NCBI GenBank assembly: GCA_008933995.1 | Contig: WARS01000037.1 | Coordinates: 434,001-498,000, forward strand | Source of the DNA: Datnioides undecimradiatus | Taxonomy: Eukaryota; Chordata; Actinopteri; Lobotiformes; Datnioididae | Direction of reading: 5' to 3' | DNA length: 64,000 nt | Shown: positions 1 through 64,000 of the stretch, one piece after another | How positions within the stretch are numbered: position 1 is the stretch's first letter | How the letters are laid out: every line of letters starts with the position of its first letter | Program-made: the position numbers and the translations under genes | The notes under the pieces: generated by a model | What the model saw: the letters and a program-made list of their open reading frames with translations, nothing else | Told to the model about the DNA's origin: nothing | Database searches by the model: none

Positions 1-333
1 CCATATTTGTACAAGTATCTCTTTATAGTGGAATAGTGTACCACAACTCCAGTGTCTGCCAGATCTTTCTGGAGGGATCGTGCAGTCAAACGTGGGTTTT
101 GACTTGCTTTTCTCACAATCCTGCGAGCTATTCTGTCTGATATTTTTCTTGGTCTTCCAGATCTTGCTTTAACTTCCACTGTTCCTGATGACTGCCATTT
201 CTTAATTACATTCCGAACAGAGGATATTGGCATCTGAAAACGCTTTGCTATCTTCTTATAGCCTTCTCCTGCTTTGTGAGCGTCAACTATTTTTCAGTTT
301 CAGTTTTCTAGACAACTGCTTAGAAGAACCCAT
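1..333 (-). pseudogene. Tc1-like transposase, N-terminal part, frameshifted
   Basis: The minus-strand ATG at 331-333 opens a reading frame starting MGSSKQLSRKLKLK, a typical start for Tc1-like transposases. One extra A in the run at 290-294 shifts the frame and gives an immediate TGA at 283-285. Skipping that base restores an open frame to the window edge, covering the paired helix-turn-helix DNA-binding region (segments such as GYKKIAKRFQMP and a GRPRK basic linker). The catalytic DDE domain lies outside the window. As read, this copy cannot make an active transposase. The one-base insertion is seen directly; inactivity is inference. Confidence 0.85.
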
Positions 334-699: not shown

Positions 700-1332
700 T
701 AGATTTTTAATACCTGTTTCAAGATTATACCAGCCAAAGTATGAAAGTATGATGGAAAACAGATGATATGGCACAGAAATATTTATTACTATATCACACA
801 TTTTGCAGTACTTCCCAGCAGTATATCTCAATAATAAACCAAGTAAATACTCCTAAAGTGTAAATCAATTGTGTAAAAAGGCCTGTATCACTGTCCAGTT
901 AAAAACAGTTAACTATGTAAATTTAAAAAAAAGCCAAACAAAACCAGAATTAAAGAGACTGATTGTGAAATTGTTCCCGTGTGTGTTTGGGTGCCTTACT
1001 TATTCTGTGGAGAGAGGACGTAGAATGACCAGTCTTCATGCTTTTGGCACCAGCAGAGCACTTTCTGGATAAAGTTCAAAGATTTCTGTAGAGGTAAATA
1101 GTTATATGTCAGTCACTTATCTCTATCAAACCAAGAACAAAATACTTAAACCTAACAGGTATGCTTTATCAGTGAAATGCTGCTACAAAGAGGAGCAGAA
1201 AAGAGACAGAAAGGTGCTTTGATTGTGTCACTTTTACTTTCTGATGCATTACCATGTACAAAACCCTCTAAAATGGTCACTCGGGATTAATCCCAAACCA
1301 GACATTGAAAACTATCAATTTTCAGGACTTAC
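450..1332. other. Intronic/edge sequence left of the channel exons
   Basis: Apart from the Tc1 end up to 699, no exon with Cav3 similarity was found between 700 and 1332. The next channel exons (start of the II-III linker and domain III) must lie outside the window. The sequence is AT-rich without other recognised structure. Confidence 0.5.
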
Positions 1333-4300
1333 ATTGCCATTATTAGTGTCTGTAGCTGGGCATTCCTTCTCTGTGGTTACGTTAATCTTAGTGGACAAGT
1401 TGGACCCAGAGCTAGAGAAAGGGCTGTCTTCACTAGGACTTGAAGGGCCCTGAAACAACACAAAACAGGGTTGGGCAAAGGTTTGTAAAGAAAGGTGGGT
1501 ATGTTTGGGCAATAACAGCATCAAACTGTAACTCTCAACAAACAAAAGGTGAACCAAGTGTGTATGCAACTGCTTGAGTGTGTCATACTTAAAAGCCACG
1601 GGTATGCTTTTCAATTAACATCCAGCTCTTTAAGAAAACTAAGACAGAACTTCCTACCCTATCCTGGAAGCTCTGAACCACTATGCCCACAAGTATATTG
1701 AGAAGAACATGTTTTCCAAACACAATGAGCACAACAAAGTAGAGGGCAGCCCATGGGGAGGTAGCAGCCATGGCGTTGTATAGCACCAGATTCCAGTCTT
1801 CCAGAGTCAAAATCTGGATCGACAAATGTAATAAATGAGAGTAAGAAAGTCTGTAAAATTTAGGTACATTGGATTGATGATGGCACTAACAACGAAGTCA
1901 AAAACCAACCTGGAACACAGTAACCATGGACCACAGTAAAGTGTCAAAGTTTTTCCTCTCAGTGATGTCATCTCCGTTGTGTGTTTTGAAGCTGAATTTG
2001 TGATAGAACAGCTGCATACCCAATACACTGCAAAGAAACAACAAATTGCAGTAAGGTACATGTATGTTTGCATAATCCAGTTTAATAACAGAACACAGTG
2101 TGTATACATGCCTAAAAATCAAAGTGGTAAACAGCAGGAGACCGCAGAGCACAGCTGCCTTCTCTATGGTAGTCTTCAGCACTAGCAGTTGTCTCTTCAG
2201 GTAAGGGAGGAAGTGAACAAGCCTCACAAATCGCAGCAGACGAAATGCACGCAGAACTGACAACCTGCCATCAGCTTTAGCAATTACCTCCCACAAACTA
2301 GAAACCACAGAGGCACATATTTACTGGATGAAGCATTAAGTAGAGGTCCAAAATCAGATTGAATGGGATCATATTACCTGAAAATAACGATGACAAAGTC
2401 AAAGATATTGTTGAAGTCCCTAAAGTATGTCCATGAGAGACCCACCAACTTTAAGACCATCTCAAAGAAAAATAGAATGGTGAAGATGATGCTGCTGATC
2501 TGTAACACATGTGTCATTTCCTTAGGCTGTAGGGAGAGGAGATGGAAGAAGTTGAGAGAGCAAGATAGCACAGTGGGAAAGAGAGAAAGAGGGAGGTTAA
2601 AGTAAGATTAAGTAAAGATGCAAAGAGATGTTAGGGATGAGTGAAGAGACAGTGATTAGTACAAAATATGAAAGTAAAAAAAGTCACACAAAATCAGGGT
2701 CTTTGAAACAGCTTTAGCTCTAGCTTGGAACCTTTCATCTGCTATGGTCTGCCATTATTCACCCTAATAACCTCAAATGTATAAAATTATGGAAAGGATA
2801 AATAGTAAATAGTAAGGCAGACGCCTTGTCACCTGCTCATGGTGCTCTATGGCCATGGTGAGAACACTGAGGAAAACAGCAAACATTATCAGTTGGTTGA
2901 ACAGTTTACTTTTGATAGTCCTTTTTACTTTGCTCTTTAAAAGTACCCAGACCTGAAAATGGAAGACAGTTATTAGTGAGGCAACAATATTTCTGGTGGG
3001 TGTGGTGCAGTAGAGAGCTGTTGACTAGTCTCACCAGTGCAGACTTATAATAGGTGCTGCGTTCATTGGGGTACACCTTGTTCTTCTGGCTACTGAGAAA
3101 GGGACAGGGGAGGATTAACATCAACAACTGAAAACAGACCACCTGTTTCTGTGTGTTTGCATTTTGAATGCATCATTTAGCAATTGGCTCACAACAACAT
3201 TTTCAGTGTGTCAATCTTACAAACACAAGTTAGCTTATTCTGTGCTCAGAAAACAACAGATTTAACTGCCTGTAACTATGTGTAAAATCCTTTAGAAACA
3301 GTGACGCAGGCAGATCAGCAACCACTTTGAACTAAAGGTATATTCAACTTTAGTTATAACACTCATCATTTGTGAATTACTCAAAAACACAAACATACAT
3401 TGACATTACTATACATAGTTATGGACACAGATATCATTGCAAACTACAATTCTGGATGCAAGCACTCAAAAGTTTTAGGTGCTAAAACACTTAACCACAT
3501 AAAACACTAACCTGTTGTGTCTAGAGGAGATCCTTTGTAGCAAGTAGGTGAACCTGTCACAGAACATAGACAAAATACCAGCACGCTGGTCTCCTTGCTC
3601 TCCTGTATCTCTTTGCATGTTCTCTGAAAACTGGGTGGCGATGACGACTGCACACACATTCATCATGATGAAGGACCCCATCTGGTTAGAGAAGTAATGG
3701 GTGACTAATTAGAGTAAGGGATCAAAAACTTTGAGGAAGTGCATAAGCAACACAAATGTTTTTAACTTGTGTATTTCTGCCCTAGATTAAACGTGGCACT
3801 GACAGAGAAATGTGTTCTTGGATGTTGTTCAGTTGTCTCTTGGAGGAAACAATTGCTGTTATCAAATATTTTGGTTATCTACAACAAAAACAAAGACAAC
3901 TGGCTACTTACAACAGTAACGAGAATGAAAAACATACAACTCCAAAAGGAATGAGCATCCATAACATAAAACATGATCTCTGACCATCCTTCAAGTATGA
4001 CAACCTGGGAATAGAAATAGAGTGATAAAAACAAAATATTACTATGTGGCAAAATTTTAACAACATTCAGAGAAGCTTTTAGTGAAGTAAAGGAAAACGT
4101 CAGATGAAAGAACAAACTATCTATTGTGATGATGGGTTCTCCATTCATAGGAAAGCTAAACTCACTTATGATTCTGTGATTAGAGAACAGGAATATAGCT
4201 ATACAGACATGATAAAGGAAACAATCCCACACTGTCTGTTTTTGCTTCACCATGTTCACAGTCAAATGGATTTCTTCACATATCAATGGTTTTCTTACCT

Positions 4301-6861
4301 GGAATATGGCTATCCAGGCAAAGCCGATGTTATCAAAGCTGATAGCTCCCATGTAAGGGTTGAGGTCCCCCGCACGACAGACACTGTAGTACATGTTCCA
4401 GTTTACACAGCTGTTGGCACTGGCCCCACCCACCGTAGGAACAAACTCATTTGCAGCTGAAGCATTGTGTGGAGCAGCTAATGTGCAGGTTTCCCCATTC
4501 TTACGAGAAGGTGGCACATCATGGCACCGCTGCATCCCATTCTTGTTGTCAGGTGAACAGATGAATGGGATTTTTTCACCATATTTGGACATGTAGTATG
4601 GACTTAGGGACACATTGTACTTTCTGGATAGAAAAAGAAGGAATGACAGCTTATAACTGCTAAAACTGAAATGTTATAGATGTTATTACATGTTGTTTTG
4701 GGGTTTTTTTTTAGATTTTACATTATAGAATTGTTTGTCCTGTGTGTTTAAATCATTTTTACATACTAGTCATATTGGTATTACAGCTTCACAAAAATAT
4801 AAAACTGAGTCAAAAACTGAGACACACAAAGACATACCAAAACTGTCCAAAAACATGATGTAGGATTTTTTTTTATCAAGTATAACACTAACGAGCTGAC
4901 CAAGTAACACAGTTCACAAATTACATGACATTTACTGCACTGATTTTATTTTCTTATTTTCAGATAAAAGTGGTACTGTCTTGCTATACATTGTTACATA
5001 TTACAATAGGAATAGTATTCTTGAAGATGATAGTTCCTTAAATGTTTTTCTTTACTTGCCAAGTGCAATAAAGCACAGTCAAGGTCACCTAATCCTAATC
5101 CTTAGTGATTAGTATCAATCAAAATGTTAATTTAGTTGCTGAAGTCTTTCATGCAGAAAATGCCAAAATATTTTCCTTCTTGCTCATATTCTTGACTCAC
5201 AAATTTGCGTATTTGCTGTTTCATGGTAAATTGAATGTTTAAATTTTTTGGACAATGAGTAGCATTATCTGGAGGCCATTTGTACAATTTGTAGCCTAGA
5301 AAGAAAAAGAAAGAATAAGTATTCTTACATGGAAATGTCCTCCACCAGGAAGCAGCGATTACGCAGTTGACCTGCCCAGAGCTGTACTCCCACAACGCTG
5401 AAGACGTGGATAACAAAGACGCAGAGGATGAGGACATTTGCAAGCATGGGCAAGGTGTCTACGAGTACTGTCACCAAGCCTCGCATACCTACATAGATGA
5501 ACACAAACCAGAACTTGTTTTGACCAATACTTTGTGGGACACACGGGCATATACTGCAGTATTTAAGCACACAAGTTACAAGGTGACATCCACACAGATA
5601 CACATAGTTACCAGACAAAAAGTAAGGAAAAAAAAATAAAGCAGCGACTTACTTGGTACTCTGCCAATCAGTCGCAGTGGCCCCAGTATTTGAGAGATTT
5701 GAAACTGGATGCCAAGGGAAGCAAGGAAGTAATCCAGCAGCCTAAAAGGATGGTTGCAAGGTTGGTTGGAAGATTTTCCTTTGCGTGGCTTTCACTTACA
5801 AAAATGGAAATGTAAGCATTCCAATACTGAACACTATATTGGTATTAAATGTTTTCTAAGGTAAATGCTCTGGCTTATCTGCATACAAACAAGAAAATCA
5901 AGTGATTTTTCTGCATGAGTGGGAAGCGTTGTGGGATACTGACTCTATAGAGTTGACAAGGAAGTCGACCTTGTTCCAGTTGTTGCTAAGGTAACTTCCT
6001 TTATAGCCAAAGGCACCCAGGCCCACCATCTTTATGGCCATTTCCACCATAAAGAATGTAAAAATAAAAGCCTCTGATACCTGGACCCACACAATAAAAA
6101 ATACACAGTTAATCATACAACAGCAATGTTAATGCTAAAATAAGTGATCACAGCACATGTTTTCAGCTGCACTGCAATGACGTAAACTGAGGTAAACACT
6201 GCTGAACAGTGTTGACACAGGACACGGGAAACCTACAATTTTTATTTTTATCTAAAGTAAACTAAACATGTGTTCATGCACCAGTAACTTTTCACTACCA
6301 ATACCCCAAGCATGCAGGAATCTAACCTGTATGACGAGTGTCTTCTCTTTGTATGGCTTGTACATGCCCAGAGTCACACAGTTGATCAGAGCTATCAGTA
6401 TGGATGCGTAATTCAACCATGTGAAGGAAGAGGTTAAGGATAAAACGTCATTCATATAATTCATCACTAGACAAAAGTCAGATGATAGAGGATTACATAT
6501 TGGGAGCACGGAATCGGACTAATAATGGCTATATTTATTTAATATTTTTATATGCAATATCAACAGACACACGTACATAAAGAGATCTTTTGATTAAACC
6601 TTTACATACAATCAGAAAAACACAAAATAGACAATCTTATACTTCAGGCAGTGAGAAAGGATATGGGCTGCAAATCAATTGCAGACACCAGTTTCGGGGT
6701 CTTGTAGTTTGTTTTAAGCAGAGGCAAACCGCAGAAGCCAGTGCAGGGTAGGGCAGCTGCTCCTCCTCTGTGATGACACAGCTGGGTTTGTGAACTCCTT
6801 GTTCAAGTATTGTAAGTTCCATATCCTGCTGCTGCTTCCTCTGTCCCTTACAGTCAGTCAT
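1333..6861 (-). CDS. T-type (Cav3-like) voltage-gated calcium channel alpha-1 subunit, domains I-II, partial
   Basis: Fifteen coding exons, 5' to 3': 6665-6861, 6327-6420, 5944-6080, 5653-5741, 5329-5488, 4299-4623, 3912-4004, 3512-3681, 3035-3089 (or 3092), 2833-2952, 2378-2526, 2112-2297, 1910-2027, 1658-1813, 1333-1449. They give about 722 residues with every phase consistent. The N-terminus has the Cav3 signature LPYPALA followed by RPRNWCL. The domain I filter is LEGW (E339) and the domain II filter LEDW (E636), matching the Cav3 EEDD pattern. S6 of domain I ends VVIATQFSE. Domain II S4 keeps its charges ([17 protein letters not shown]). Domain I S4 reads [13 protein letters not shown], with three gating arginines missing. 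The I-II linker is far shorter than in Cav3.1-3.3. Domains III-IV would lie left of position 1. It is closest in motifs to Cav3, but I cannot assign it to cacna1g, cacna1h or cacna1i. Confidence 0.9.
4624..5328 (-). other. Long intron between channel exons 5 and 6
   Basis: This 705-nt intron separates the S5 exon of domain I from the extracellular pore-loop exon. It is AT-rich. A stretch open for about 50 codons (5150-5298) follows a pyrimidine-rich AG, but its phase does not fit the flanking exons, so it was not called. Confidence 0.5.
6421..6664 (-). other. U12-type AT-AC intron (channel intron 1)
   Basis: On the minus strand the intron begins ATATCCTTTC at 6664 and ends TTCAC at 6421. The U12 branch-site sequence TCCTTAACC lies at 6440-6432, about 13 nt from the acceptor. 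Joining 6665 to 6420 restores the Cav3 segment CSPW-LNYAS in frame; no GT-AG pair does so. All three signals match the minor spliceosome consensus almost exactly. Minor introns at fixed places are established for voltage-gated Na+ and Ca2+ channel genes. Confidence 0.9.
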
Positions 6862-18256: not shown

Positions 18257-21200
18257 ATGGAGGTAAGCCAATATTTATTTGTACCTGATTTACCATTCTG
18301 TGCAACTCTTATGACTTCTATGACTTTACTTTAACCTATAAGTTTGAATAATGAAGTGATAGACTGCTTAAACTTTGCACATAAACTTAAATGTAGAAAA
18401 CCTTTAAATAAAATTTGTAGCATAAGTGAAGACTGCTTGTTCTTGTACACACCTAGATGTAACAGATGGTCTATGCCTGTTATTTTCATTAAGCAAAAAT
18501 CATAACATAAGTCAGCATAGAGTAACATGCAGTGCCTCACAAACACTTGTTTAATATTTGAGTGGCAACACATGGTGCATGTTAGAACAGAGATAGGCAA
18601 TTTTATTTCAACTTTTGAATGTGATTCTTCTTTTTAATCTTATCATCGGAGCAGCAGTAACTGCTACTGACTAAGCTCTGTACTCTCCAGGTGACACCCT
18701 ACATCCAGAAAAATGGTGGCCATGCTGCATCATTGTTGGCGAGTCTGAACCGCCAAAGAGAACAAGCTCTGTTCTGTGACTGTGTGGTCAGACAGAGTGA
18801 GAGCCCAGGTCAGCTCTACCTTGCACACAGGTGAGCAACATAAACTGTCCTTCGCAAACAAACACACCAAGTACATATTAATAAAATTCTTGTTTATATT
18901 GGTAGTTGTGTATTGTACAGCATCACATATCTAATTGTTCTTTGCTCTCCCAGGTGTGTCCTGGCAGCTTCTAGTCCAGTATTGGCATCTATCTTGTCCT
19001 CTAGTGGTGCCCTGGTGGAACTGCAGGCTCCATGTCTGTCTGACTCTGTCCTGGCGCTTCTTTTGGACTACATTTACACAGGAGCTTTGCCAAGCACTCT
19101 TACCAAGCAACATTATTACAGTCTACTCACTGCTGCCTGCCACCTACAGATGGATGAACTGCAGGAGACTCTGAGGACTGAGGTGAATGCAGCAGGCAGT
19201 GTGAACACTTCCACAGGAGCAGAGAATCAGCCATATAAAGACAATAACAACACTAATAGTAACACTTTGAACACTTGCAGTAAACATCTGCCATTATCAG
19301 GCGTTTTCAGTGGGAATGCTCGGGAACAAGAAGAACAATATAGTGATGATATGGATACATGCACAAGTGGCAGTAAAAATGGTGCAAACCCTGTTAAAAA
19401 TGTAGGTTCTGGTTGTATTGCGTCTGAAAGCACTAGGAGTGGTGTAATTAAAGGTAACTGCAGACAAGTAAATTATCTGACACCTCAGGATTTGATTCAA
19501 AATATCCCTTGCATCGCCAAAGTGCATGGGATGTCTGGAGTGGACAAAGGGGGAAACGAGGATCAGTTTCATTTAGATGGCACTGTAAAATCAGAGACTT
19601 GGCAGATGAGCACAGAGGAAGAGTTTGGGAGGACATTTGAGAAGAGGGGGGGCTTGTTTTTAGACTCCACTGCCGAGGTGCAAGAGGAAGAAACAAGCAA
19701 AGCGGACAAGATGCAGCGACCATGTTTAACAGTGAAAAGTAAAGCAGAAGAGACGCAAACTAGCAGAAAAGAGGAGGATAAGATCAATCACTTCCCCTTT
19801 CTTCATCTCTCAACCTCATACCTGAAGGACAATCTTTCTCCCTCACAGTGCTCCCCTTCATCCTGTCCCTCATCAACATATCCGTGCTGTGGAGCAGTGC
19901 CTGTTATTCGTCACAGCAGTACAGCCACTATGGTAGAAGCCACTACAATACCTTCGCACCATCCAGTTTCTCAGACCCCTGACTCACAATCAGGAAGTGC
20001 AGACAGTGACACAGCTGTTGAAGATTTCACCACCAAACACAAAAATAATCATGGAGCACAGAGTCAGGATTTCAGAAACAATAAAAACCACACTGGAACG
20101 CAAAGTTGTGATTTCAAGAGTAGATCAGATCAATGTGGAATACAGGATTTATGTTACAAATCCAGCAATGCAGATCACATTGAATATATGGGCAATGGAT
20201 TATCCCACATTACAGGTGAGGATGATTACCATGCCCACCGTGATTCAATTCAGAATAAGAATCAAACAAACACTTTTAGGGATGATTCAATGATGCTGAA
20301 TAAAAATTGTAGCTTTTTCCCTAGAGGACTGAAGTATAAAACTGATCTCAGCTCTGGTGATTTCCCCTCCAAACATCAGCAACTGGATTGTTCCAACTGC
20401 CACAATGTCTCAGCGGAAACTGCAGCAGAGGAGCAGCCCATTCACTCACGAGATCTGAGAGCTGTAGTTTCACTTCCTGTGCAAGACTCAGGTGCAGGAA
20501 GTGATTCTCACTGTAAAGATTTATGTCTTGAGGGAGAAATGAAAAAGGCCCACAGTTACTCAAGCATGTGTCCAGCAGGAGTGGGCAGACAAGACAGCCA
20601 CGGTGACCTCTATGGATCTATGAAAGATTGGTACCCAAACTTGCAAAGAGCTGAGAGGAGAACAACATATGTGGCTCCCACCCAGCGGGAACATGATGAC
20701 AAAGACACAGCTATAGATAATGTCACTGTCCACACATCTGTGGAACATGACAACACTCTCACTTTTACAATGCCTCTGGACAGCAACATGTCGGACCCTA
20801 CATATAATGTTGTGATGAAGTCATACAGCGGGCAGCTTCATTATCACTGCCTACCCAAGGAGAACACACACTTATCACACGCAGACTCTGATCACAAACA
20901 CTCCCACCCAACCCACCCTAATTATTCAGACCAGTCCAGTGATGATGAGGAGGTTGGTCCCTTTGACAGTGCAGGTCTTAGTCCTCTAAGGCAGCACTTT
21001 ACTCCTGCAGACCAGGTTCTACTGCTAGACATTAGCGCTAAACCTGCAGAGCTGCTTGTTTCCTACAGACATAGATCTGACAAACAAGAGAGATGGATTG
21101 CATTTGGCCAGAAGGACACATTTGGAAATGGGCTTGCAGATAATGACAGAGAGCAACGGCATGAAGCAAAATCTGCAGCAGAGGATGGTGAGAAAAAAAT

Positions 21201-21714
21201 TATATCTAAGCCAAAATTCGTCAGTGAGGGATCTGATGAGGCTAAGGCTGAAACATGGGTTGACAGAACAAATGAAGAACAAAAATCTGTGGGTAAAGAT
21301 CAAAGCAGGCCAGGAGCTGAGGTTATACATAATGCTGGGTTTGTGGAGGATGACAATCACACTGCTACCTTGACAGTTTGTTCACCTCCTAGTGTGCCAG
21401 ACTTTGCACAAGCCCCTGTGTCATCTTCCTTGTCTGTCTGCATACCTTCTACCCTTTCAGCCAGCGTGCCAACAAATATATCAGCTCATCTGTCAACTCC
21501 TGTTCACCACCCTTTCCAGTGCTCTCTGTGCGACCGTTCCTTCAGCCAGCGAGGCTCTCTGAATAGACATGTGCGGAGCCACCTTGGCGTGCGGCCCTTT
21601 CCCTGCCCTCGCTGCCCTATGACCTTTTCACGCCAATACCGTGTGTCAGAGCACATGCGTGTTCACCAGCGCTGTGTGATTGGCAGTGACTTTCAAAACC
21701 CCCCTTCTTCTTAA
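18257..21714 (+). CDS. BTB/POZ domain protein with two C-terminal C2H2 zinc fingers
   Basis: Three coding exons: 18257-18262 (ATG GAG only), 18691-18830, 18954-21714, together 2907 nt or 968 residues plus stop. Residues about 10-125 form a BTB domain (CDCVV, LAHRCVLAASSPVLASIL, LLLDYIYTGALP, LLTAACHLQMDELQETL). Residues about 130-895 are a long, low-order, Ser/Asp/His/Asn-rich linker with an acidic patch (SDQSSDDEEVG). Two fingers end the protein, about 905-925 and 933-953 (FQCSLCDRSFSQRGSLNRH and FPCPRCPMTFSRQYRVSEH), joined by the linker LGVRPF. This is the architecture of BTB-ZF transcriptional regulators acting in the nucleus through BTB dimers and corepressors. I cannot name the orthologue. 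The start is supported because exon 1 supplies ME directly before VTPYIQKN, and all phases match. Confidence 0.9.
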
Positions 21715-33305: not shown

Positions 33306-36300
33306 ATGAGATCACAGAAGAGCTACCATAGACTAAACTAAAGTTGTAATTTTTAACTGCAGGAATTTCCCCATTAAACTGTAGGAACATATACCAGTTG
33401 CTCTGAGGTGAGCCGAAGAGTCTTCTTATAACAGACGTTGCCAGAATTCATGAGGAGCTCAGACTGACAGGATCCTGACACCTGATTGGACGATCTGTGG
33501 TCCTCATCACTAGATGATGACTCATCCTTCATCCTGAAAAATCAATCAAAACAACCAATTTGGTGTAAGATTAAAGTGTGGAAATTGATAAGAACTGGGG
33601 TGTCATAAGGACAAAGATATGTTGTTTTAAAGTCCGAAGTCACCTGTTCACTGAGGACATTGTGAGTGAGCTCTCTCCTCTGTCCCCTCCTGCCTCTGTC
33701 ACTGATTCCTGAAATGCACAAAGGTCCAAAGATGAAGATGAGGAGCAAAAATGGCTCCAAGTCTTTGCCTCCTTCCCTCCACTTGAGGCTAAGGACCAAT
33801 TATATCTGTGTGCTTACTGATTTGGAATCACTGTTCCTGCTCCTCCATGAGAACCACCAGCGTCCACCTTTCTTTGGCATCTTCTCCTTCACGATGTTCT
33901 CCACTGAGGCCTGGAGACAACCGTGCAAACACAACTCAAAACTGACTGAAAATGTAACTCAAAACTGACAGAAAAAAACTCAAAACATCATGGAGCAGAA
34001 AACATATACCTATAGATGAACAGAAATCAACAACCCAAAACACAAAGTAAACCATAACAAACATCACATTTAAAACCACACTGAACTACAATGGAAACAG
34101 CAAAGTAAAGCTAATAAGGTAAGTAAAGTAAATGGCACACAAGCAAAAAGCAAATAATGTAAAGTAAAACCTGAAAGGAAGAAACTTTTGAGGTTTGTGA
34201 CTGGATAGCAGTAGGAAAATGTAAGGTAGAAATGCAACAAGACACACGACAAGGAGAGAGTGAGAGACATGCAAGACAGGTAGTGGCAGATAGGCAGATT
34301 GAAATGGTGATACAGAATGACAACAACATGCCTTTACCAACAACCAAGCAAAGCGCAAAAACATCATACGGGCTGTGAAGGGCTGGAGCCAAACAGACCA
34401 GGGAGGCAGTATGAGAAGAGGCCAAAAGCAGAAAACACGTAACTCAAACACCAACACTTAGTACACACAAACATCGGATGGATGGTTGGAGAAAAAAAAA
34501 ATGAAAATAGAAAGGAAAAAATAAAAAAGGGGGGGGGTAAAGACATGACATTATTAAAGTGTTAGGAAAACAGTTGAAAAGCCATATTTCACTGTGGTAT
34601 AAAACTAGCAGCTTTGATGTAAGCTTCCCCGATGTGTGTTCATAATCAGCCAATTTCATTTACTGACATATATCATACTGCAGTACAACTGAAATGGTTA
34701 AGTATTGCTTATAAGAGTTGGAAACAAATGTGAACACACATTATCCGGTAAGCATTATCATGACATAATGAGTGGGCGCTGGCAAATGGCAACACTGAAC
34801 CAAAGTGAAACATCAGATTAACAAGAATTAATTGCAAAATGCTGGGAGTGCACTGAAAGTGATGCAGCGGGGGAAGGGAGGTGCAGAGCACTAAAAGACA
34901 CCAAACACCACCTAAAATAAACAATGATGACATAATCAAATTAAAATAATTAAAAAACATAACATACATTCTGAGGTATTTATACTTATGTAATTCTATT
35001 GAGGTTTTTCATACTAATCCAATATTTTACAGAAATGCTGCACATTTTACTCAAATGTAGAAAACATCTCATTGATTTATAAAATACAGTGTACATTACA
35101 GCTTTATGTAATACTACAACATGAAACTGCTGCTTATACACTAGTATATGAGTCATATTAATCTAGTAATATACAACAATAAGAGGGTTTATTCTGTTGC
35201 ATAATGGGTACTTTTACTTTTCCAACGATTGAGGCTACTTGTATTTAAATAAACGCTTCTTCCACAACTGATGCTGTTAAACTGATGACATAGAACATAC
35301 ATTTAACTGGAAACAAGAAAACGGATGAGAGCACATATTTGTGTATCACTGGTCTTACCTGCGGCAGTGGTTTCTGATAGACTTGCATGGCCAGCATGAC
35401 AGGAGCTGCTGTGTTCCAGTTGTAGTACCTACACCAAACGACAGAGAGCAGTATAAACACGTCTGCATCTTAGACTTGAACCCGAAAAACACAGCTAGAT
35501 ACGTGGATCAATACTGTCATATGTCAGTATGTTAAATACAAAGAGCAGTAGCTTCCTGGAGTCTTTGCTTGTAGCCTGACAACCTTATAATAATGACAAG
35601 GCTTTAGGAAGTTGCTGCATCAGGCCAAGAAATGGTCCAGCACATTAAACAAACATAATTTGGAGATGTTGTACTAATTAAAAAGATTTAACTATCTTAA
35701 TTAGTGAACTTTAGGGGGTGTTGAGAGGCAGATATTGTTACCTTTAGACAAAGTGACTAGCTGTTAGCCAGCTGCTGGGACTAGCTTTATAGTTATTGTA
35801 CAGATATGGCAGTGTCTTTAATCTTCTAATCTAACAAATGAGTTTCCCCAGAAATGTCAAAGATACCTTTTAAAGGCTCTGTTTGTTAATGAAGGATTGT
35901 GCCACCCCAGTATTAGTGATTAAGTGAAGGACATTAAAGTATGAGATTATTTTCCAAATATGCCTTTTACATTTTTTTGTCATAATCTTTGCACTCAGCC
36001 TAAATGTGGAACCCACTTTGGTATTTAATATCAGACAGTAATACATACTTGTTTCCTATCTTGACCACCAGGTTAGGGTCGTCAATAATAGAGGGGTTTT
36101 CAGAGAACTGCTGGTAGGAAATTGCCCTCTCCTGGAACTGCTCTGTAGCATGAAACCACACATACAGTAAAAAATCAGCAAGAACACACACAGATTGTCA
36201 GAGAGATGTTTTTAAAATTAAAATAGTTTATTCATACATTAGCAATGTAATTTTAAATGAGAAGTTTAATTTTATCATCAGTGCAACCTATTTTTTTCTG

Positions 36301-39300
36301 TCTGTCATTTCCTCCTTCCTTATTCTTCATCCTACCTCTTGTGATCTCCCTGTTGTCAGTGAGTCCTCCGCACAATGAGATGGCAACATGAGGCAGGTCC
36401 CCTATTTGGTCGGACAAACTGTCCACGCCGCTGTCCATCCCACTGCTGCCAACTGACTGTGGGGACTGGTTGGCACTCCGCACCCCCATCATCATCAACT
36501 CTGAGTCTCCCCTCATGGAGCTACTGCCTCCATCACTGAGGAGAAAGGGAAACAGAGAAACTTTAATACTATTAAAGAGATCTTGTGGTCAAATAAACAC
36601 CAGTTTAATGTGGCATAAAGTACCTACATAAAGTGTAGATGATTGTTTCAAATAGCAGCAGTGTTAATGTTCATCGGCCATCTGCAGCCACTACAATATT
36701 TCATTTTAATACATACTTAAGTATTTAGAACAAAGCAGTGGTGGTATGGTAGCCACCAGAGACTTGGGGTGGGGTATATGTTGTACTCAAACAAACGTGT
36801 GGTACACCTACACTACTCACAATAAGTTAGGGATATTGTGAGAGACTCAGTGGATGTCATACATACGGTGTTTGTTTCACTTCAGAGATTTTTGGGATAG
36901 GGAGGCAATTGTATTGGGGTGATAGACACAGAACTACTGGCAGAGTTCGTGACAGATCCAGGAGTGGAGCCCCACGAGTGACAGGTTGCAACGATGACCA
37001 GTACCTAAGGACCTATGCACTCAGACATCATTATGCAACTGCCACACAGCTGCAGGCCCATTTACGAGATGTGAGGGGTACTAGGGTTTCCAGACAAACC
37101 ATTCGCAACCGACTCCACCGCTTTGGCTTGAATGCCAGGCGACCGTTGCAGGTGACTCCACTGACACCAAGACACCGCTGTGAACGTTTGCAGTGGGCAC
37201 AAGACCATGTGACCTGGACAATGCAGCAGTGGTCTACCATCCTGTTCACTGATGAGTGTTGGGTCACCTTGCACAGAAATGATGGTCGTCAGCGTTGCTG
37301 GAGAAGGCGAGGTGAGCGATATGCTGAGGTCAACATGGTCCCCAGGGTTCGCTTTGGTGGAGGAGGTGCAACAGTCTGGGCAGACATCACCAGTCAGCGC
37401 AAAACAGATTTGGTTATTGTAGATGGCTCAGTCACTGCATGTTCTTACCTCAGAGACATCATAGAACCCATCATCATCCCCCAATTCCACCAGCACACCC
37501 CCAACTTTCTGTTCATGGATGATAATGCTCCACCACATCGTGCCAGAATTGTCACAGCTCGACTTCAGGAAGTCGGAGTGCCTCATATGGTATGGCCAGC
37601 AATGTCCCCTGACCTGAACCCCATAGAGCACGTCTGGGACCAGCTGAAGCAGAGACTGGATGATCGTACCCCACCCCCACGTGACCTGGCAGAACTGCGT
37701 GTAGCACTTGTGGAAGAGTGGAACGCATTGCCTCAGAACAACATCATGAGGCTAGTGAGGAGCATGAGACGTCACTGTCAAGCTGTCATTGCGGCAAATG
37801 GTGGAAACACCCGCTACTGACATTGTCAATTTTTGTTATTTGGGGCTATCCTTGTTATTGTCTAAATTTTTGGGGTAATAAATATTAAACTAATGAAAAT
37901 GGTGTTTCTTCTCAGTCATTATTAGTAATATCAAAGGGAACTTTTACTTATTTCATTAAAATTCAGACCAAATAGGAAAAGCACTCATGTAAATAACAAT
38001 ATCCCTAACTTATTGTGAGTAGTGTACATTGTCTTATTTCTGAACCTTTTAGGGAAGTAGAGAGCAGCTACTTCAGGCTCCAGCTCTGTAATGTCATCCA
38101 GGTATATTCCATCAGTACCCAGGTGTTGACTTCTCTTTTCTAATGAGACACAACATCAAACGTTATCAGTAACAGACAAAAAACGATACTAAAACATCTG
38201 GAAAGTTTGAGTTCCAGGTACTGATACCTTTCTTCTTCGATGGCGAGTCAGTTCTTCTGATGGGACTTCCTCTATTTACACCTTCATCAAGATGATCAGG
38301 GAGAATCCTGGGAGACATTGAGCAAGCTGTTAAACCCTCCATCTCTGCACATGATGGTCCAACACTTTCGACTTCTCTCCCTGAGGAAAAAAACATAAAC
38401 AAACAGGTCACAAGGATACAGTGGTACACAAGGTTACAGTTTCATACTATCTCTCTGAAATCCAAAAATCAATACATTTACAGTTAAAATCAAGCTATCC
38501 TATTGGTTTATGGTTAATTCCTGGACAGTGTAATGTTTGAACCAATCAGATGTCACATTTGCAACGACTGTAGTTCAACAAAAATGACCACTAGATGTCA
38601 CTAGAGGGCACGTGTTGCAAGTCTAACAGCGAGGCAGTGCAAATGCTTGTTTGTTTACAATCTAACTTCAACAGTGGCTATGGGGCCATTATCCTACAAT
38701 GACTCCCAATCCCAAATTCAACAACAAAACAGTTATTGACTGACACTAACTGTTGAAAGTGTTTTAGTAAAACCTGTTTGGCATTTAGCTGGACAATTGT
38801 TATTTAGTCATACTGGATATCTATAAAGCAACAGTATGCTCCATATAACTACCTTTCTCACCTCCCACTCTGCCTTCAACACTTGCTTCATTTTTACTTT
38901 CTTCAGAGTCCTTGTCTCTCTCTTGAGCAGCAGTCACCCCTGGCTGGGGATCATAGACAGAAAGGGAAGTGGGTCCAGTTTCACTGATGGCTCTGAAGTG
39001 AGTGCTGGCAGACACCGGGATGGAGACCGCTGTGGCAGGGTCCTGCTTCTGGTGGGAAGTCAGGAAGGACGGCTGTAAGAGAGAGACACACATGTTTTCT
39101 TTTTCTTTTTTCTTTACCTCATCTCTATTTCGGGAAACATGCTTGTTTGGTTTAACTGATTTAGAAGACTGCTGATAAATATGTGGCTTTAACCAGCAGC
39201 TTGTTAGCTTAGATAAGCACAAGTGGAAATAGCAAGTGTGTGTGTATGTATTACTTATGTTGTTTTTTTACACAGTTATATTGTCGGGACTCTCCTGACT

Positions 39301-57300: not shown

Positions 57301-58702
57301 AGTCTCAGATATCTCCTGAACACTTGCCCTGCAGGACGCAGCTTTGCCTGATATACTTTCTATGCACTTAAATCTGTTTGAGCCAGCCTGATTTTTACGG
57401 TACAGATTCAAGCAGTTATAGCAGTGTAGAAAATCTGAAAAGATTTGTTTTATGCAAGTCACAAAAGGTTACACAAACCATCCCAGGCAGTTGAAGTTAC
57501 ATAAGTACAAGCTATTCTAGTAAGTTGGTCGTATCAGCTATAAAAACACCATGTGGAGAGCACACATTAACTATCAGTGATGGACAGAATGAGCAAGTGA
57601 GCAAACAGATGACAAATTGTCAAATTCACCCTGATTGTTAGGCTGCAAACTTCCAAAGTCCAAAATATTTGAAACACTCCTTGTCTGTGTAAATGTCTGG
57701 TTAGTTCTCTGCATAAAAGATACAAGGGCACAAAGTAAGTTTAAAATATCTGTACATTTATACAATTAAAGCCATACAAAAGTGTACATTGTAAAATGCT
57801 GCCAAAACACATTGAATTTGTGTTTCTTTGAAAGTTACAAGCACAACGAGCACAACTGTTAACCATGCAAACAGAATAGTTGTACACACAAGTAAGTACT
57901 TTTTTACATACTACAAATCTGACAAAATATATTCAAAATATTTCATTTGTAGAAACAGACATGCAAAACAAACCTCTAGCTCTGAAATCGCCCCAGTAAA
58001 AATGTTTGTTGCCAAACGTCGGCTACCATTGCACACAAATGATTGTGTTTACCCTTTTTTAATTACTCTCATGTTGTGTGCAACTGCAAGGAAGTGTGCA
58101 GAACACTGTGATATTGCAATAAAACACCCGAATACAGCTAAACCTCCAAACACATGAAAAAATATAAAAGTGGCACCATCTGAGCAATAACTGAGACAAG
58201 CGTTTTTTGTCTAACAAAAGGTGTTTTCACAGGATGAATCTCATACTGTTTTTATCACCATGCAACTCGAATGTGAGTATTTTTTATTTTGGGGGGGAAA
58301 AGTTTTTTGGGATCAAAAATTCTCAAAAAGTTGCAATTTAAGTGATTAGTGGAGTGGTGAATAAATGTTAACAGTACCATTTAATGACCAGAAGAATCTT
58401 TTCTTAACTCTCAGTATAGTCACAACTCACAAATCAATTAAGGCCACATGAAAACATGTTTTGCAAAATTATTTCCTCTTGTTTGGCCATAACACAACAT
58501 CTTCAAAGACATTTACCATCTGAATGTGTCCGCCTTGATGTTGGCCGTCAAAACCAAACCTCACCTTCAAATCCTATTTTGTCTTTAAAAACCAACGCTC
58601 TGGGTGTACTGTCACACCCTGGCACTTCTTTTGTTTGGACAGTTAAAGTGATTGCACTCCTGGCCGTGACTCTTTGTAGTCGACTGTGTTCATGTGTTTC
58701 AG

Positions 58703-61700
58703 TCATATGTGTTTTCCTGTCAGAAAGAAGAGTGGTCGGTCCTCCTTGGCGTTGGCGGTCTGGAATTCGTCGCTGAGCCTGAACCTCCACTCCTCCTCGA
58801 GCTCCAGCCTGCCCACCGTCTGCCTCAAGGAGCTACGATCTGCACTGATGACACACAGAGTTGCACCTACAGGAAAGCAGGCATAAGGGAGAGAAACACT
58901 TTAAATATGACATGGAAATCAAAATTACTGCAGGATGCCATCATCATAAACTTTTATGACTTTATTTTGCAGATTGCTGAGATATAGACTGGAAATATGG
59001 TTAGGGAGAGGTACATGACCTCACATGTGACCTCCCAGCACATTTAGGGATTGAAAATGATATCTAAGATATCATGTGCAGCTTCACCTGGACAGTCATG
59101 TTACTCAGAAATACATAATTGCATATGAATGATCTATTACACTTATTATTGGTGTATAATATGTATAATTGGTGTATAATGGCCTTTGTACCTTTGAGGA
59201 AAGAGAACTTCTTGAGGAACCCAGGGGTCACAAAGGAGTCGGCAAAACAGAGGAGCAGACCACTGAACAGCAGCCCGGTGGTGCTGATGTTGACGGAGTG
59301 TGGTCGGGAACTTACAAAACAGACTGTCACCTGCAGAAGGCAAGAAGAGTGTGACTTTATTACACTGTATAAATTACATTAACCCATCCTCCAGAGGTTC
59401 AGAGGTTAATAATTTACCACAAACAGAGAGGCTGCAACTCTGTGTGTCCATCTCTTTATGTTTGTAACAAAGTCCATATGAAGTTTTCTGTCCATCTACA
59501 TGCTTTTGTGTGTGTCTATGTGTGTGTGCGCTACATACCTCAGGTCCCAGGTTGAGATAACAATCCACAGACAGCACAGGGTGAGTGTAGTTCTTGGTGC
59601 TGAGTGGAAACAGCTTCTGGCTGGTGTGTTGGAGGTATTTTTCCAGGAGAAGCTGAGCTGGTGTGGCCAAGAAAAGGTGTTTGCTGTCTGGGGCACAGAT
59701 GTACTGCGAGGGCCCCACCGAGGTGGGAACATCTGTCATCTGGAGAAATGTCAAATACCTTTAGTATCTTTTGTCAACATAAACCTTTGTGTCTGAAATA
59801 TCTCTCATTACCTGGTGCATGCAGGCATCATTCATAGCTCTATTAACTACTGTAAATGTAGTCAGATATGCTGGTTTGATGAACTGAATGTGGGTGAAAG
59901 CCATCACAATCATACAGGTGATTAATTGTACTTGTTATTTTACTGTGTGCCAAAATGTAACTTAACTTGGATATTAATTGTTTATTTGTTTGACAGCTCA
60001 TAATAAGTGGACTGCCATTTTTCTTAATTGAACTTTTGTTTTTTAATCAAAGTCAGATTATGATTTGTTGCTTGCTACATAAGTGCTGTTATATAATGTG
60101 TACATTAGTATATGAATAAAAATATAATTATTAAGTGTTCAAATAATTCAAAGTATTCAAATCAGCTTTATTCTGCTCTGTGAGTGATATGTGGTTGTGT
60201 TTTCATGTGTCTACAGCATCTACCTTGGTTTTGATAATAAATGTCCTGTATCCTCCTATTGCTATCTGCGTCTTCATGACACTGAAGCTGTTGAAGCGGC
60301 AGATGAGCAGTCCAGCACTGTGAAGCCTCAGTGTGAAGTCCACATCATGACAGGTAAAACGGTTCTGGTCGTATTGGACGTTCTGACTCCGGTCCACATT
60401 GAGGAGAAGGAAGTCATGAAGGTGGCCTCTGGAGAAAGGCTCCCTCTGTTTGTTACCTGGATGAAACAAAATTATTTGGAACTTTTTTAATTATTTTATT
60501 ATTATATAATTATTTTAATTACAATTAATTGTTTACCGTAAAAAAAATTTACATGTAGCTAAGCAAAGTAGTTAAAAAATAACACAGATGCTGTCCGCCT
60601 AAGCTTTTAACGTTGTAATGTGAAGCTGCACACTGGATGATGAGGGTTTGTTTTCAGGAAATAAGATATAGCTTGCAAAATAGCCGCAGTCTTTGAGTTA
60701 AACAAGTAAGCACTTCAACAATGAAGACATCAGCAGAATCTGCAGAGAAAACTTTAGGGCAAATGCAAGCAGAACTTTAATTATACTGAAGTGTCCTGGG
60801 CGGTTCAGTACAACTTTAATGAAGTTTACCATGTTGTATTTGAAGTGAGACTGTGTGTGTTTTTGTAGTGATTTTTGAGCAGATATTTTGATTTGAAAAC
60901 TTGTTACCCCCCTACCTGTGAGTCCACGGCTACTCCACTTCCTGATCCCGCAGAGTCCGTAGTGGGCCAGGTCTGGACAGGCCTCCATGTGCTGCAAGAC
61001 CTGCTTTAGTGACACAGCGTGTTCCACTGGACCACTAACAGCAGCAAAAGCAAACAGGAGCCATGTTGATACAAGCTCAATATGTGAATAAACAGACTTC
61101 TAGCCATTGTAATTGACATAATTGCTCACGTAAGTAATGTGTATGTATGTACTTGCGTGCGTCCAGGTCCACTGCGTTCCACATAACACAAGAATCATCA
61201 GCCAGGATGATGAAGGGCCAGACGTCACCAGCTGGGCCCCCTCCTTCCAAACGGCGGCTGCGCTCTAGCTCCAAGTTGTGATACGAAAGCTCTTTAATCA
61301 GGAAGTGAGCAGCACCTGCGAGAAAATGGGGAATGATTATTAACGTGATAGACTATTAAATAAACTGTTGATATTGACATTTCTGCAATACATATGTCAG
61401 AGCGAGAAAGGACACCTGACATATAAAAGCAGCTACATACCTATTCCAGCTCCATTGAAGACAGTGGGTAGTACGAGCATGATGTGGTTGGGCCAGTACT
61501 TCTTATACACAGCCATCTCATACTCTTTGACCACCAGGATATGCAGATGTGAGGCTCCATCCATGGCATGGTACAGATTAAACAGACCGTGCTCATGACG
61601 ACCAGTGGTTGGGGTGAAGATTGGACTCTTGATGCAGTCTGGGCTCTGAGGAAGTGGAAAGAAGATCAAAATAATGTAAAAGACTATCATACATTTTGAA

Positions 61701-63744
61701 AAACTAATGGACCACTGTAATCAATGGCACATTGTTTTTAGACTGGTAAGTAAGTATTAACTATTTTCATAATTTAACAAGCTATTCATTTCTACACTAT
61801 CAACAGAAGAAGGATGATAATAAGGTCAGATGTTGTGATCAGAGGTTTCTTTTTAGTGCTTCAATAAATATAAAAAATCTGTAGTACGTTTCCCCTTGAG
61901 CCATAGTTTGGCTTGTAGCACCACCCAGTGGAGCTCAATGGTATAGCACTGTGGTCAACGCCACAGATAACTTCAATGCTGAGGTCCTCCTGCATTTAGG
62001 AGGGATTAACTTGTTTCTTAACAGAGTATGAATGTTTATATCAGTGATTTTATTGTGATGTTAAGAAAGATCAGTTAATACATATCATTATATATCAAAC
62101 TCATCATTTTTAAAATTTATTTAAATAGTTTCTGAGCCTAGCAGGGGTAAAAACACAGTAACATTGTGTTACATTTATTGTCAAGGTATGCTATTAATAT
62201 CTTCACTAATGCTTGTGATCTTTATCCCAAAGAACCAGTAAACTCCATGAGAAATGTTTGTTGGACTGTTTTGGATGCTGCCTCCACCAACAACAAATAG
62301 TTGTTAGAATGAGGGTGGACGTATCAGATGTATCAGAATTAGAGGGGATGTGTCAGAAAATCCCTGAAACTTTCTAAAACTGACAATCCAACATTCACAC
62401 CCACCTCACACCAGCAGTGTGAAGCTGAGAAAGTAAAGCCTGGTTTACTTTTCTTTCTCTAGCTCTTTTTCTATGTGTCACACAAACACCTTCATGCGGA
62501 TAAACAGGGAAGGAAAGAACGTTTTACCCAATCAGAGGTGAGAGGAAGTCGCATGCTCTCCAGCTGGCCTCCTGGTTGGCTGAAGCTGAAGTAATGCTCT
62601 TTAGACTTTGGGATGATGAAGTAGAGCTGGATCTCTTCTCCCAGTAATAGATGGGTGAATGTGAAGGCATGCAGTGTTGACTCGTACATCTGAACATGAG
62701 ATCGGAGAAGACATTCATTACCTCTACACATGCACCATTTAGATTTCAAAAGCAGAGTATGGGTGTCACTCATCGGACTGTGTCTTTGTTGTGCTCTGCT
62801 CACCTGGTATCTGGGGTTGAAGCCTAAGTACTGATGACACTGTTCACAGTGGTGGTACGTGTTGTAGGCTGCATATTTAGACAGTTTGATTCTTGATGTG
62901 CGTCTACGGAGGTACACGTCCTCCTGTCGCACAAGGTTTCCTTGGAAAGACAGCAGGGGCAATAGCACAATATGAAGGTGACTTTTAATTTTATTTATGG
63001 ATTTGGTTTTTTTTTGTTAGTTTTGTGTTAATGAATTTATTTGTTGTGACTGTGCCTACCTTCAGCACCTGGTTTATATCCAGGACTATAGATGGAGCTG
63101 ATGTCATCATACTTGGGGTCATGGATGGTGTAGTCAAAGGGCATCGTCTTCATAATGTCAGGGTTTGGCCAGGAAGCATTGGGTGGGTGGTACTGCACTC
63201 CCTCTGCCTGTGCACCTAAACACACAACACATTTGCAAACGTATTCATGACAGGGGAGTTAACAGCACAAACTCTTAGATACATAATATGATTTTGGCAG
63301 CAATAACAGCAAAATAGACAAGTGTCAGAGAAGCAAAAATATAGAAAATGCATGGGATTAATGGAGGCTACTGCAGCAAAAGTACTGACTGTAGTTGATG
63401 TCTTCTTCATCATAGATGTCCACCTCCATCAGCCTGATCAGCATCCGAGACAGGATACCCAGGAAGTGCAGGTACGCTCCTGTCTTACCCACCTGACAGT
63501 GGAGAGAACAAATTTAAATATATGTGCAAACACAGTAAGGCGTGAGCTTGTGTTTGAATCAAAGGAAGACATTAGCACACAAAGTACCTGTGGGGGTCCA
63601 CTGAGAAGCAGCCTGCGAGGATGAAAATTGTCACCTCGTCCTTCGGTGCGATTGCTGCTGTCCATGTGGTAGGAGCGGGGGACTGTCCACTGGCGATAGT
63701 ACAGTGACTGCTCTGTACATGTCATCATCTTACTAAGCAAAGGC
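58703..63744 (-). CDS. greb1: GREB1, C-terminal third, partial
   Basis: Twelve exons, 5' to 3': 63588-63744, 63390-63492, 63060-63215, 62804-62940, 62528-62689, 61441-61645, 61153-61315, 60916-61034, 60224-60456, 59539-59739, 59192-59330, 58703-58866, about 646 residues with consistent phases. Upstream exons lie right of the window. The C-terminus reads [20 protein letters not shown] and ends [12 protein letters not shown], highly characteristic of GREB1. The block with [19 protein letters not shown] and [20 protein letters not shown] belongs to the C-terminal glycosyltransferase-like domain; the DDS motif is a candidate metal or sugar-nucleotide site. GREB1 is known as an oestrogen-receptor cofactor reported to glycosylate the receptor in the nucleus. 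Linkage to lpin1 in matching orientation supports greb1 over greb1l. No break was seen. Confidence 0.95.
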
Positions 63745-64000
63745 CTGCACAGAAAAGATGCAAATGAATTTCTCCACATGAAACTTTCAGTGTCCAACCC
63801 ATCCAGAACACACAGAGATGAATCTACGTATGTCCATCCTGATAATAAAGAAATAACAGAGTGCTGCTTTACTGAAAGCAAAGAGAAACAAAATACTGTT
63901 AAACATCCGCAACAAGTCAGTTAAACCCTTTGCTCTGCTTTAATTACAGCAAATTGACTATTGACCATTTCTGATGAATTTGTGTGGGAGATTGTCAACA

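Follow-up and report, generated by a model that had tools for sequence, protein, structure and literature searches.

A stretch of 64,000 nucleotides from the fish Datnioides undecimradiatus (contig WARS01000037.1 of assembly GCA_008933995.1, positions 434,001 to 498,000; C488:434001-498000 in the numbering used here, and called the window) carries on its minus strand, from window position 6861 leftwards past the left window edge, a gene for a four-repeat calcium channel of the Cav3 (T-type) family (locus L009). Judged from its sequence, this gene is a relaxed, lineage-specific copy in which voltage sensing by domain I appears largely dismantled and the pore conserved. The explanation that we lean towards is that a Cav3.2-like duplicate has been kept as an open frame, has lost the sensing role of domain I and encodes a channel that opens more easily. 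The gene model, which was assembled exon by exon, has 30 exons with 1322 codons between the first in-frame ATG and the last matchable exon, four repeats and no stop. The statement in the first-pass annotation of this DNA that no frame is broken holds over this whole length.

Charge loss in the domain I voltage sensor

The central observation lies in exon 4, which has entry phase 2 and exit phase 1 between an AG acceptor and a GTAAGT donor, so that its assignment by phase on both sides, as made in the first-pass annotation, is sound. The S4 segment of domain I (IS4) reads F-Q157-I-S-Q160-I-L-G163-P-L-R166, with the same residue numbers in the full model as originally given, and the codons at the charge positions are CAA (5701-5699), CAA (5692-5690), GGG (5683-5681) and CGA (5674-5672). 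The regular domain I arginines of a Cav3.2-type channel are thus replaced at Q157, Q160 and G163. The earlier comparison with Cav3 proteins is borne out more widely, in that R-x-x-R-x-x-R-x-x-R/K stands at IS4 in all five Cav3 paralogues of the same genome as well as in the human Cav3.1, 3.2 and 3.3 chains (8/8 references in all). In the closest paralogue, C14, the four charge codons are CGT, CGA, AGG and CGG. The link between S3 and S4 is three residues shorter than in the references, again as first described.

The other sensors have fared better. By a hand-made charge list, three of four S4 charges are neutralised in domain I versus 1-2 of 15 in domains II-IV (p 0.016-0.037). IIIS4 reads K,R,R,R,R and IIS4 reads R,R,R,R,H; the claim that the domain II charges are kept therefore stands for four arginines and fails for the fifth, which is now histidine. 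IVS4 reads R,R,R,Q,K, its fourth arginine having become glutamine, and is followed by a four-residue deletion in the IVS4-S5 link (C488:429697-429462, left of the window). Within domain I the S2 glutamate, S2 phenylalanine and S3 aspartate are retained, and acidic filter residues are kept in all four six-transmembrane repeats (motif starts EGW 339, EDW 637, KDGW 973 and GDNW 1261), giving an EEDD filter and upholding what had been said of the S2 glutamate, the S3 aspartate and the pore glutamates.

Elements presumed to work together with the domain I sensor have changed as well. In Cav3.2 an Asp-Gly-His motif in the IS3-S4 loop binds zinc and cysteines in the IS1-S2 loop couple redox to that motif, and Cys123 is the predicted partner of Cys939 in the IIS5-S6 loop, matching the Cys104-Cys889 pair of the Cav3.1 structure; this bond exists only in Cav3 channels (PMC7196644). 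The Asp-Gly-His motif is absent from the window gene, the first IS1-S2 cysteine is Tyr, the second falls in a six-residue deletion and the third is Thr; C14 retains the DGH motif, all three cysteines and FGCKF. Both disulfide positions, counted via the 6kzo chain numbering, are altered, to Tyr at Cys123 and to His at Cys939 (FGCKF to FYHKF), and the FGCKF cysteine is present in 5/5 paralogues. The gating brake of mammalian Cav3 channels occupies the first 55-60 residues after IS6 (PMC2495038). The whole I-II segment of the window gene, from ATQFSE to VWVLLK, has 62 residues, and aligning it to the C14 brake gave no convincing match, with gaps implausibly placed, although a short helix could remain.

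Origin of the gene

In all searches of the PDB the best match of the window gene was human Cav3.2 (9ayg), with Cav3 chains scoring 667-730 bits versus 294 for the next family. A search of the genome itself (581 Mb) found Cav3-level matches in at least six places, namely the window gene and five paralogues (the best candidates were scored), which were labelled in this analysis by sequence as Cav3.1-like (C465), Cav3.3-like (C22 and C481) and Cav3.2-like (C14 and C325). In the protein tree the window gene forms a very long branch and its placement was left undecided, five clades having p values of 0.059-0.495 in the approximately unbiased (AU) test; a sixth clade, uniting it with C14, C325 and human Cav3.2, was already part of the best tree (support 66/71). 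Placement was therefore based on the codon model and on fourfold-degenerate sites. The codon analysis covered 975 codons, since only columns in which the window gene and C14 are both present were retained; it omits exons 1, 2, 8-10, 15-16 and 30, is without the domain III-IV exons of C22 and C465 and exons 28-29 of C325 and C481, and treats the masked codons of one partly masked paralogue exon as missing. Pairing the window gene with C14 beat four other placements by 65-96 log-likelihood units. The transversion distance at fourfold sites is 0.27 for this pair versus 0.52-1.17 for the other 14 pairs, and the synonymous (dS) and nonsynonymous (dN) distances are 0.93 and 0.27 by NG86 and 0.77 and 0.29 by YN00, the NG86 dS of the other 14 pairs being above 1.1 or undefined.

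These distances argue that the window gene is a lineage-specific, intron-retaining duplicate of a Cav3.2-like (cacna1h-type) gene, with C14 as its sister, and the retained introns point to a copy made at the DNA level. An old fourth class of Cav3 channels, which was also considered, was rejected in view of the low synonymous distance to C14. Scans of collections of prokaryote and virus contigs confirmed no orthologue, as was to be expected of such collections. If the two Cav3.3-like genes, whose fourfold-site distance is 0.59, date from the teleost genome duplication, as we infer, the window gene is probably younger than that event. Excerpts of papers on zebrafish and trout name two cacna1h genes each, not three (PMC6471419, PMC7895799). 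A search for signs of a block copy, which relied on the single flanking marker GREB1_C, matched it on C488 and C476 only, and not on C14, and thus revealed no such sign.

Selection on the window branch

Allowing the window branch its own ratio of nonsynonymous to synonymous substitution rates (omega) raised the log-likelihood (lnL) from -11681, with a single tree-wide omega, to -11576, the estimates being 0.495 on this branch versus 0.036 in the background (about 14 times); with C14 also free, they were 0.41 for the window gene and 0.069 for C14. Profile limits for omega are approximate, coming from a short optimiser run. The description of this gene as a conserved channel is accordingly unsupported in that form, the gene being a fast-evolving duplicate (0.50 versus 0.036), and of the proposed conserved channel with a silent sensor there remain the kept pore and the lost domain I charges, in a copy that is relaxed as a whole. 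Orthologues in close relatives with full arginines, and relaxed selection on this copy, had been named in advance as speaking against that proposal. In part this applies: the nearest paralogue keeps all four arginines and the copy is relaxed, although omega = 1 is rejected on the window branch gene-wide (2 delta lnL 9.84) and also without exons 3-4 (11.2) or without exon 4 (11.0).

Constraint is unevenly distributed. In full refits, exons 3 and 4 together (IS2-IS4, 73 codons) have an omega of 0.956 versus 0.466 for the rest (2 delta lnL 15.6), and exon 4 alone (29 codons) 1.50 versus 0.47 (18.1); omega = 1 is rejected neither for the two exons (0.04) nor for exon 4 (1.8). With branch lengths held, the pores of domains I, II, III and IV have omegas of 0.41, 0.36, 0.43 and 0.43, exons 11-12 have 0.62, and the sensors of domains III and IV 0.51 and 0.53, while the S4 segments alone give 1.18 (I), 0.37 (II), 0.07 (III) and 0.72 (IV). 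Such regional estimates (nine groups) overstate tests against omega = 1, and the full-refit test was relied on. Among sliding windows of 29 codons, ranked post hoc, 44 of 947 reach or exceed the omega of exon 4, and the top 25 cluster at the domain I S3-S4 region and the start of the III-IV linker.

Counts of amino-acid changes show how common substitutions are throughout the gene: 201 of 631 invariant positions (the same in the available fish paralogues, with at least three present) are changed. Exon 4 has 11 of 20 changed (p 0.03), in agreement with the omega estimates but less strongly, and the fewest changes fall in exons 6 (4/40), 21 (2/27) and 22 (3/26); 22 exons were tabulated, two of them without eligible positions, and the p values are uncorrected. 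Overall, relaxation extends over the whole gene, yet constraint persists outside three places: the domain I sensor, the beginning of the III-IV linker and part of the exon 6 loop. The domain I exons encoding S2-S4 are without measurable remaining constraint.

Functional interpretation and alternative explanations

Cav3 channels activate at low voltage and inactivate fast. Because the three outer arginines are missing, IS4 would not be held down by the resting field; no longer pulled inward at rest, it may stay in an up-like position, where R166 would lie close to the S2/S3 charge-transfer centre, which is intact. Opening would then be governed by sensors II and III, with sensor IV weakened, and the channel would carry less gating charge and open at more negative voltages, more easily near rest, since IS4 neutralisation and brake deletion shift mammalian Cav3 channels negative and raise their opening probability (Po). 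In mouse Cav3.1 the IS4 mutation R180C moved the midpoint voltage (V0.5) from -36.2 to -41.1 mV, reduced gating charge and raised the ratio of maximal conductance to maximal gating charge, Gmax/Qmax (PMC6287678), and deletion of the brake shifted Cav3.1 by -18 mV and Cav3.3 by -11 mV with an approximately twofold estimated Po (PMC2495038). A study of S4 swaps stressed IIS4 for low-voltage activation and described the domain I sensor as major in closed-state inactivation (PMC5825144), so that altered inactivation of the window channel would also be likely. The joint loss of the zinc motif, the IS1-S2 cysteines and the disulfide partner counts in favour of a lost domain I function. Going further, one may tentatively envisage a natural three-sensor T-type channel with a physiological role, in which a domain I control unit was discarded after duplication and the pore and sensors II and III were kept. 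To the discarded unit would belong the gating brake, the gating charges, the module for zinc and redox control and the disulfide that ties it to the pore loop of domain II; such a channel, if real, would provide a calcium conductance that is either standing or gated at very negative voltages.

Several observations weigh against a specific loss of domain I sensing. Because the whole branch is relaxed, the domain I loss may be the extreme of a general decay. When only amino-acid changes are counted, exon 4 is a modest outlier, exons 12 (24/51), 23 (23/47) and 26 (17/35) being above average at similar p; omega reaches about 1.95 in 29-codon windows where the III-IV linker begins (end of exon 23, C488 ~430431-430520) and 1.18 in a stretch of the exon 6 loop. 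The Cav3.2-like paralogue C325 (L030) has a shortened IS1-S2 loop that keeps only the first of the three cysteines, with the zinc motif present, and cysteine loss alone is therefore no mark of a dead sensor. A far C-terminal exon of the window gene was not identified, and the donor after exon 12 is AG|GCATGT (window 2105-2112) where C14 has GTATGA. Both the up-state position of IS4 and the sign of the voltage shift are extrapolations from mammalian Cav3.1 and Cav3.3 mutants.

Much of this would also be expected of a redundant duplicate drifting to a pseudogene, its frame still open, its constraint recently lost everywhere and its S4 changes functionally meaningless. The raised omega of the window branch in both fits, that GC donor, the deletions in loops and in IVS4-S5 and the long C terminus that was not found all suit this account, which we consider possible though doubtful. 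It sits poorly with the complete lack of stops and frame breaks in 1322 codons, given that ~3.6% of random substitutions would make a stop and that the fitted neutral length of the branch is ~1.6 substitutions per codon, and with the rejection of omega = 1 both gene-wide and without exons 3-4, the omega of 0.07 for IIIS4 (branch lengths held) and the few changes in the pore-loop exons 6, 21 and 22.

Neutralisations of this kind in S4 cause leaks in Nav1.4 and Cav1.1, and the domain I sensor might likewise have been neofunctionalised to pass cations at rest through a gating pore (omega current), beside or in place of the central pore current. The neutral S4 charge positions, the kept S2 glutamate and phenylalanine and S3 aspartate, and an exon 4 omega of 1.5, inseparable from 1, would all agree with such a leak; it is nonetheless improbable, as R166 is retained, and in an up state no other charge would be better positioned to plug the pathway. 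Far less credible still is an artefact of exon choice or assembly, with a normal S4 encoded by a different exon or with errors in the bases. The introns flanking exon 4 are only 202 and 164 bases long, a search of 104 kb found no alternative arginine-bearing S4 exon for domain I, the phases of exon 4 match on both sides, three separate codons and a three-residue loop deletion differ together, and the 75 matches listed for the genome include no second copy that is nearly identical.

Relation to known channels

The window gene resembles Cav3.2 (CACNA1H, teleost cacna1h) in its four repeats, EEDD filter, shared exon structure and a U12-type intron 1 as in the same-genome paralogues. It departs from Cav3.2 in having Q/Q/G/R for R/R/R/R at IS4, in lacking the Asp-Gly-His zinc motif, the IS1-S2 cysteines and the disulfide partner, in its I-II segment of 62 residues and in the change of the fourth IVS4 arginine to glutamine with its four-residue deletion. 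NALCN likewise has four repeats of six transmembrane segments, with fewer S4 charges than Nav and Cav channels and weak voltage sensitivity (PMC7672056), but its filter is EEKE rather than EEDD and it scores 97 bits against the window gene in the PDB versus 730; it would be at most a functional analogy and not a close relative. In mouse Cav3.1 R180C the outermost domain I gating charge is neutralised (PMC6287678), one engineered charge against three natural losses in the window gene that are joined by loss of a recognisable brake sequence and of zinc and redox parts. Among naturally occurring Cav3 channels, a narrow search of openly licensed literature found none whose domain I S4 is neutralised.

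The contributions of the four non-identical sensors to Cav3 opening have so far been argued from engineered mutants, with domain I ranked as the most important in Cav3.1 by one study of this kind (PMC6287678). A channel that evolution has stripped of its domain I sensor and presumed co-working elements, with its pore kept, would offer a direct natural test; if it is decaying instead, the gene shows the order in which the parts of a channel lose constraint.

Gene structure and splicing

The 29 introns of the model comprise 27 of GT-AG type, one U12-type AT-AC intron (intron 1) and one of GC-AG type (intron 12). An in-phase GT-AG junction between exons 1 and 2 was rejected: it added 40 unmatched residues, and comparison with the paralogues revealed the AT-AC intron, upon which intron 1 was revised and a doubt about a broken N terminus was dropped. 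Gene finders limited to GT-AG introns would therefore mis-join exon 1. In the four paralogues displayed (L034, L030, L040 and L045) the S1 exon likewise follows a comparable branch-site/AC pattern. The GC donor of intron 12 looks like the sole weak splice site of the model; a competing GT four bases past it would shift the frame. In the slow-evolving C481 the exon finder likewise picked a GC donor, AG|GCAATA, after exon 19, and such donors may therefore be tolerated.

Table 1. Exons and intron 1 of the channel gene, and neighbouring genes (window positions unless marked C488)
Feature	Position	Strand	Remarks
Exon 1, N terminus from first in-frame ATG to ...CSP	6665..6861	-	matches human Cav3.2 N terminus
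Intron 1, U12-type AT-AC	6421..6664	-	5' ATATCCTT, branch site TTTTATCCTTAAC, 3' ..TTCAC
Exon 2, IS1 and shortened IS1-S2 loop without Cys123/128/133 equivalents	6327..6420	-	Cys positions from PMC7196644
Exon 3, IS2-IS3, S2 Glu and S3 Asp kept, new polar NSIE in S3	5944..6080	-	
Exon 4, IS3 end, shortened IS3-S4 loop (Asp-Gly-His lost), IS4 Q157/Q160/G163/R166	5653..5741	-	
Exon 5, IS4-S5 and IS5	5329..5488	-	
Exon 6, IS5-P extracellular loop and pore helix I	4299..4623	-	gap-free C14 alignment, 65/108 identical
Exon 7, domain I selectivity filter (EGW) and IS6 start	3912..4004	-	
Exon 8, IS6 end and shortened proximal I-II loop, no recognisable gating-brake sequence	3512..3681	-	
Exon 9, rest of I-II loop	3035..3092	-	
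Exon 10, IIS1	2833..2952	-	
Exon 11, IIS2-IIS3	2378..2526	-	
Exon 12, IIS4 (R,R,R,R,H) and IIS5, then GC donor	2112..2297	-	
Exon 13, IIS5-P loop, disulfide partner FGCKF to FYHKF	1910..2027	-	Cys889/939 from PMC7196644
Exon 14, domain II filter (EDW) and IIS6	1658..1813	-	
Exon 15, II-III loop	1333..1449	-	
Exon 16, II-III loop end	1000..1085	-	
Exons 17-30, beyond left window end	C488:432727-428088	-	locus L009
BTB zinc-finger gene	18844-21714		
Lipin-like gene (Lipin_mid)	about 35350-36150		
GREB1-family gene	about 58700-63920		

Neighbourhood

The BTB zinc-finger, lipin-like and GREB1-family neighbours are useful markers for locating orthologues of the channel gene. Within channel intron 16 an uninterrupted minus-strand frame of 273 codons (C488:433475-434293, reaching window 1-293) looks, by eye, like a Tc1-type transposase, and an uninterrupted 329-codon Tc3/DDE transposase frame (Pfam PF01498 and PF13358) lies at window 36831-37820, on the strand opposite to the nearby lipin-like exons. 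Elsewhere in the assembly, the contig pairs C471/C472 and C473/C474 show ion-channel matches at similar offsets with identical or near-identical scores, as if they were alternative haplotypes or duplicated assemblies.

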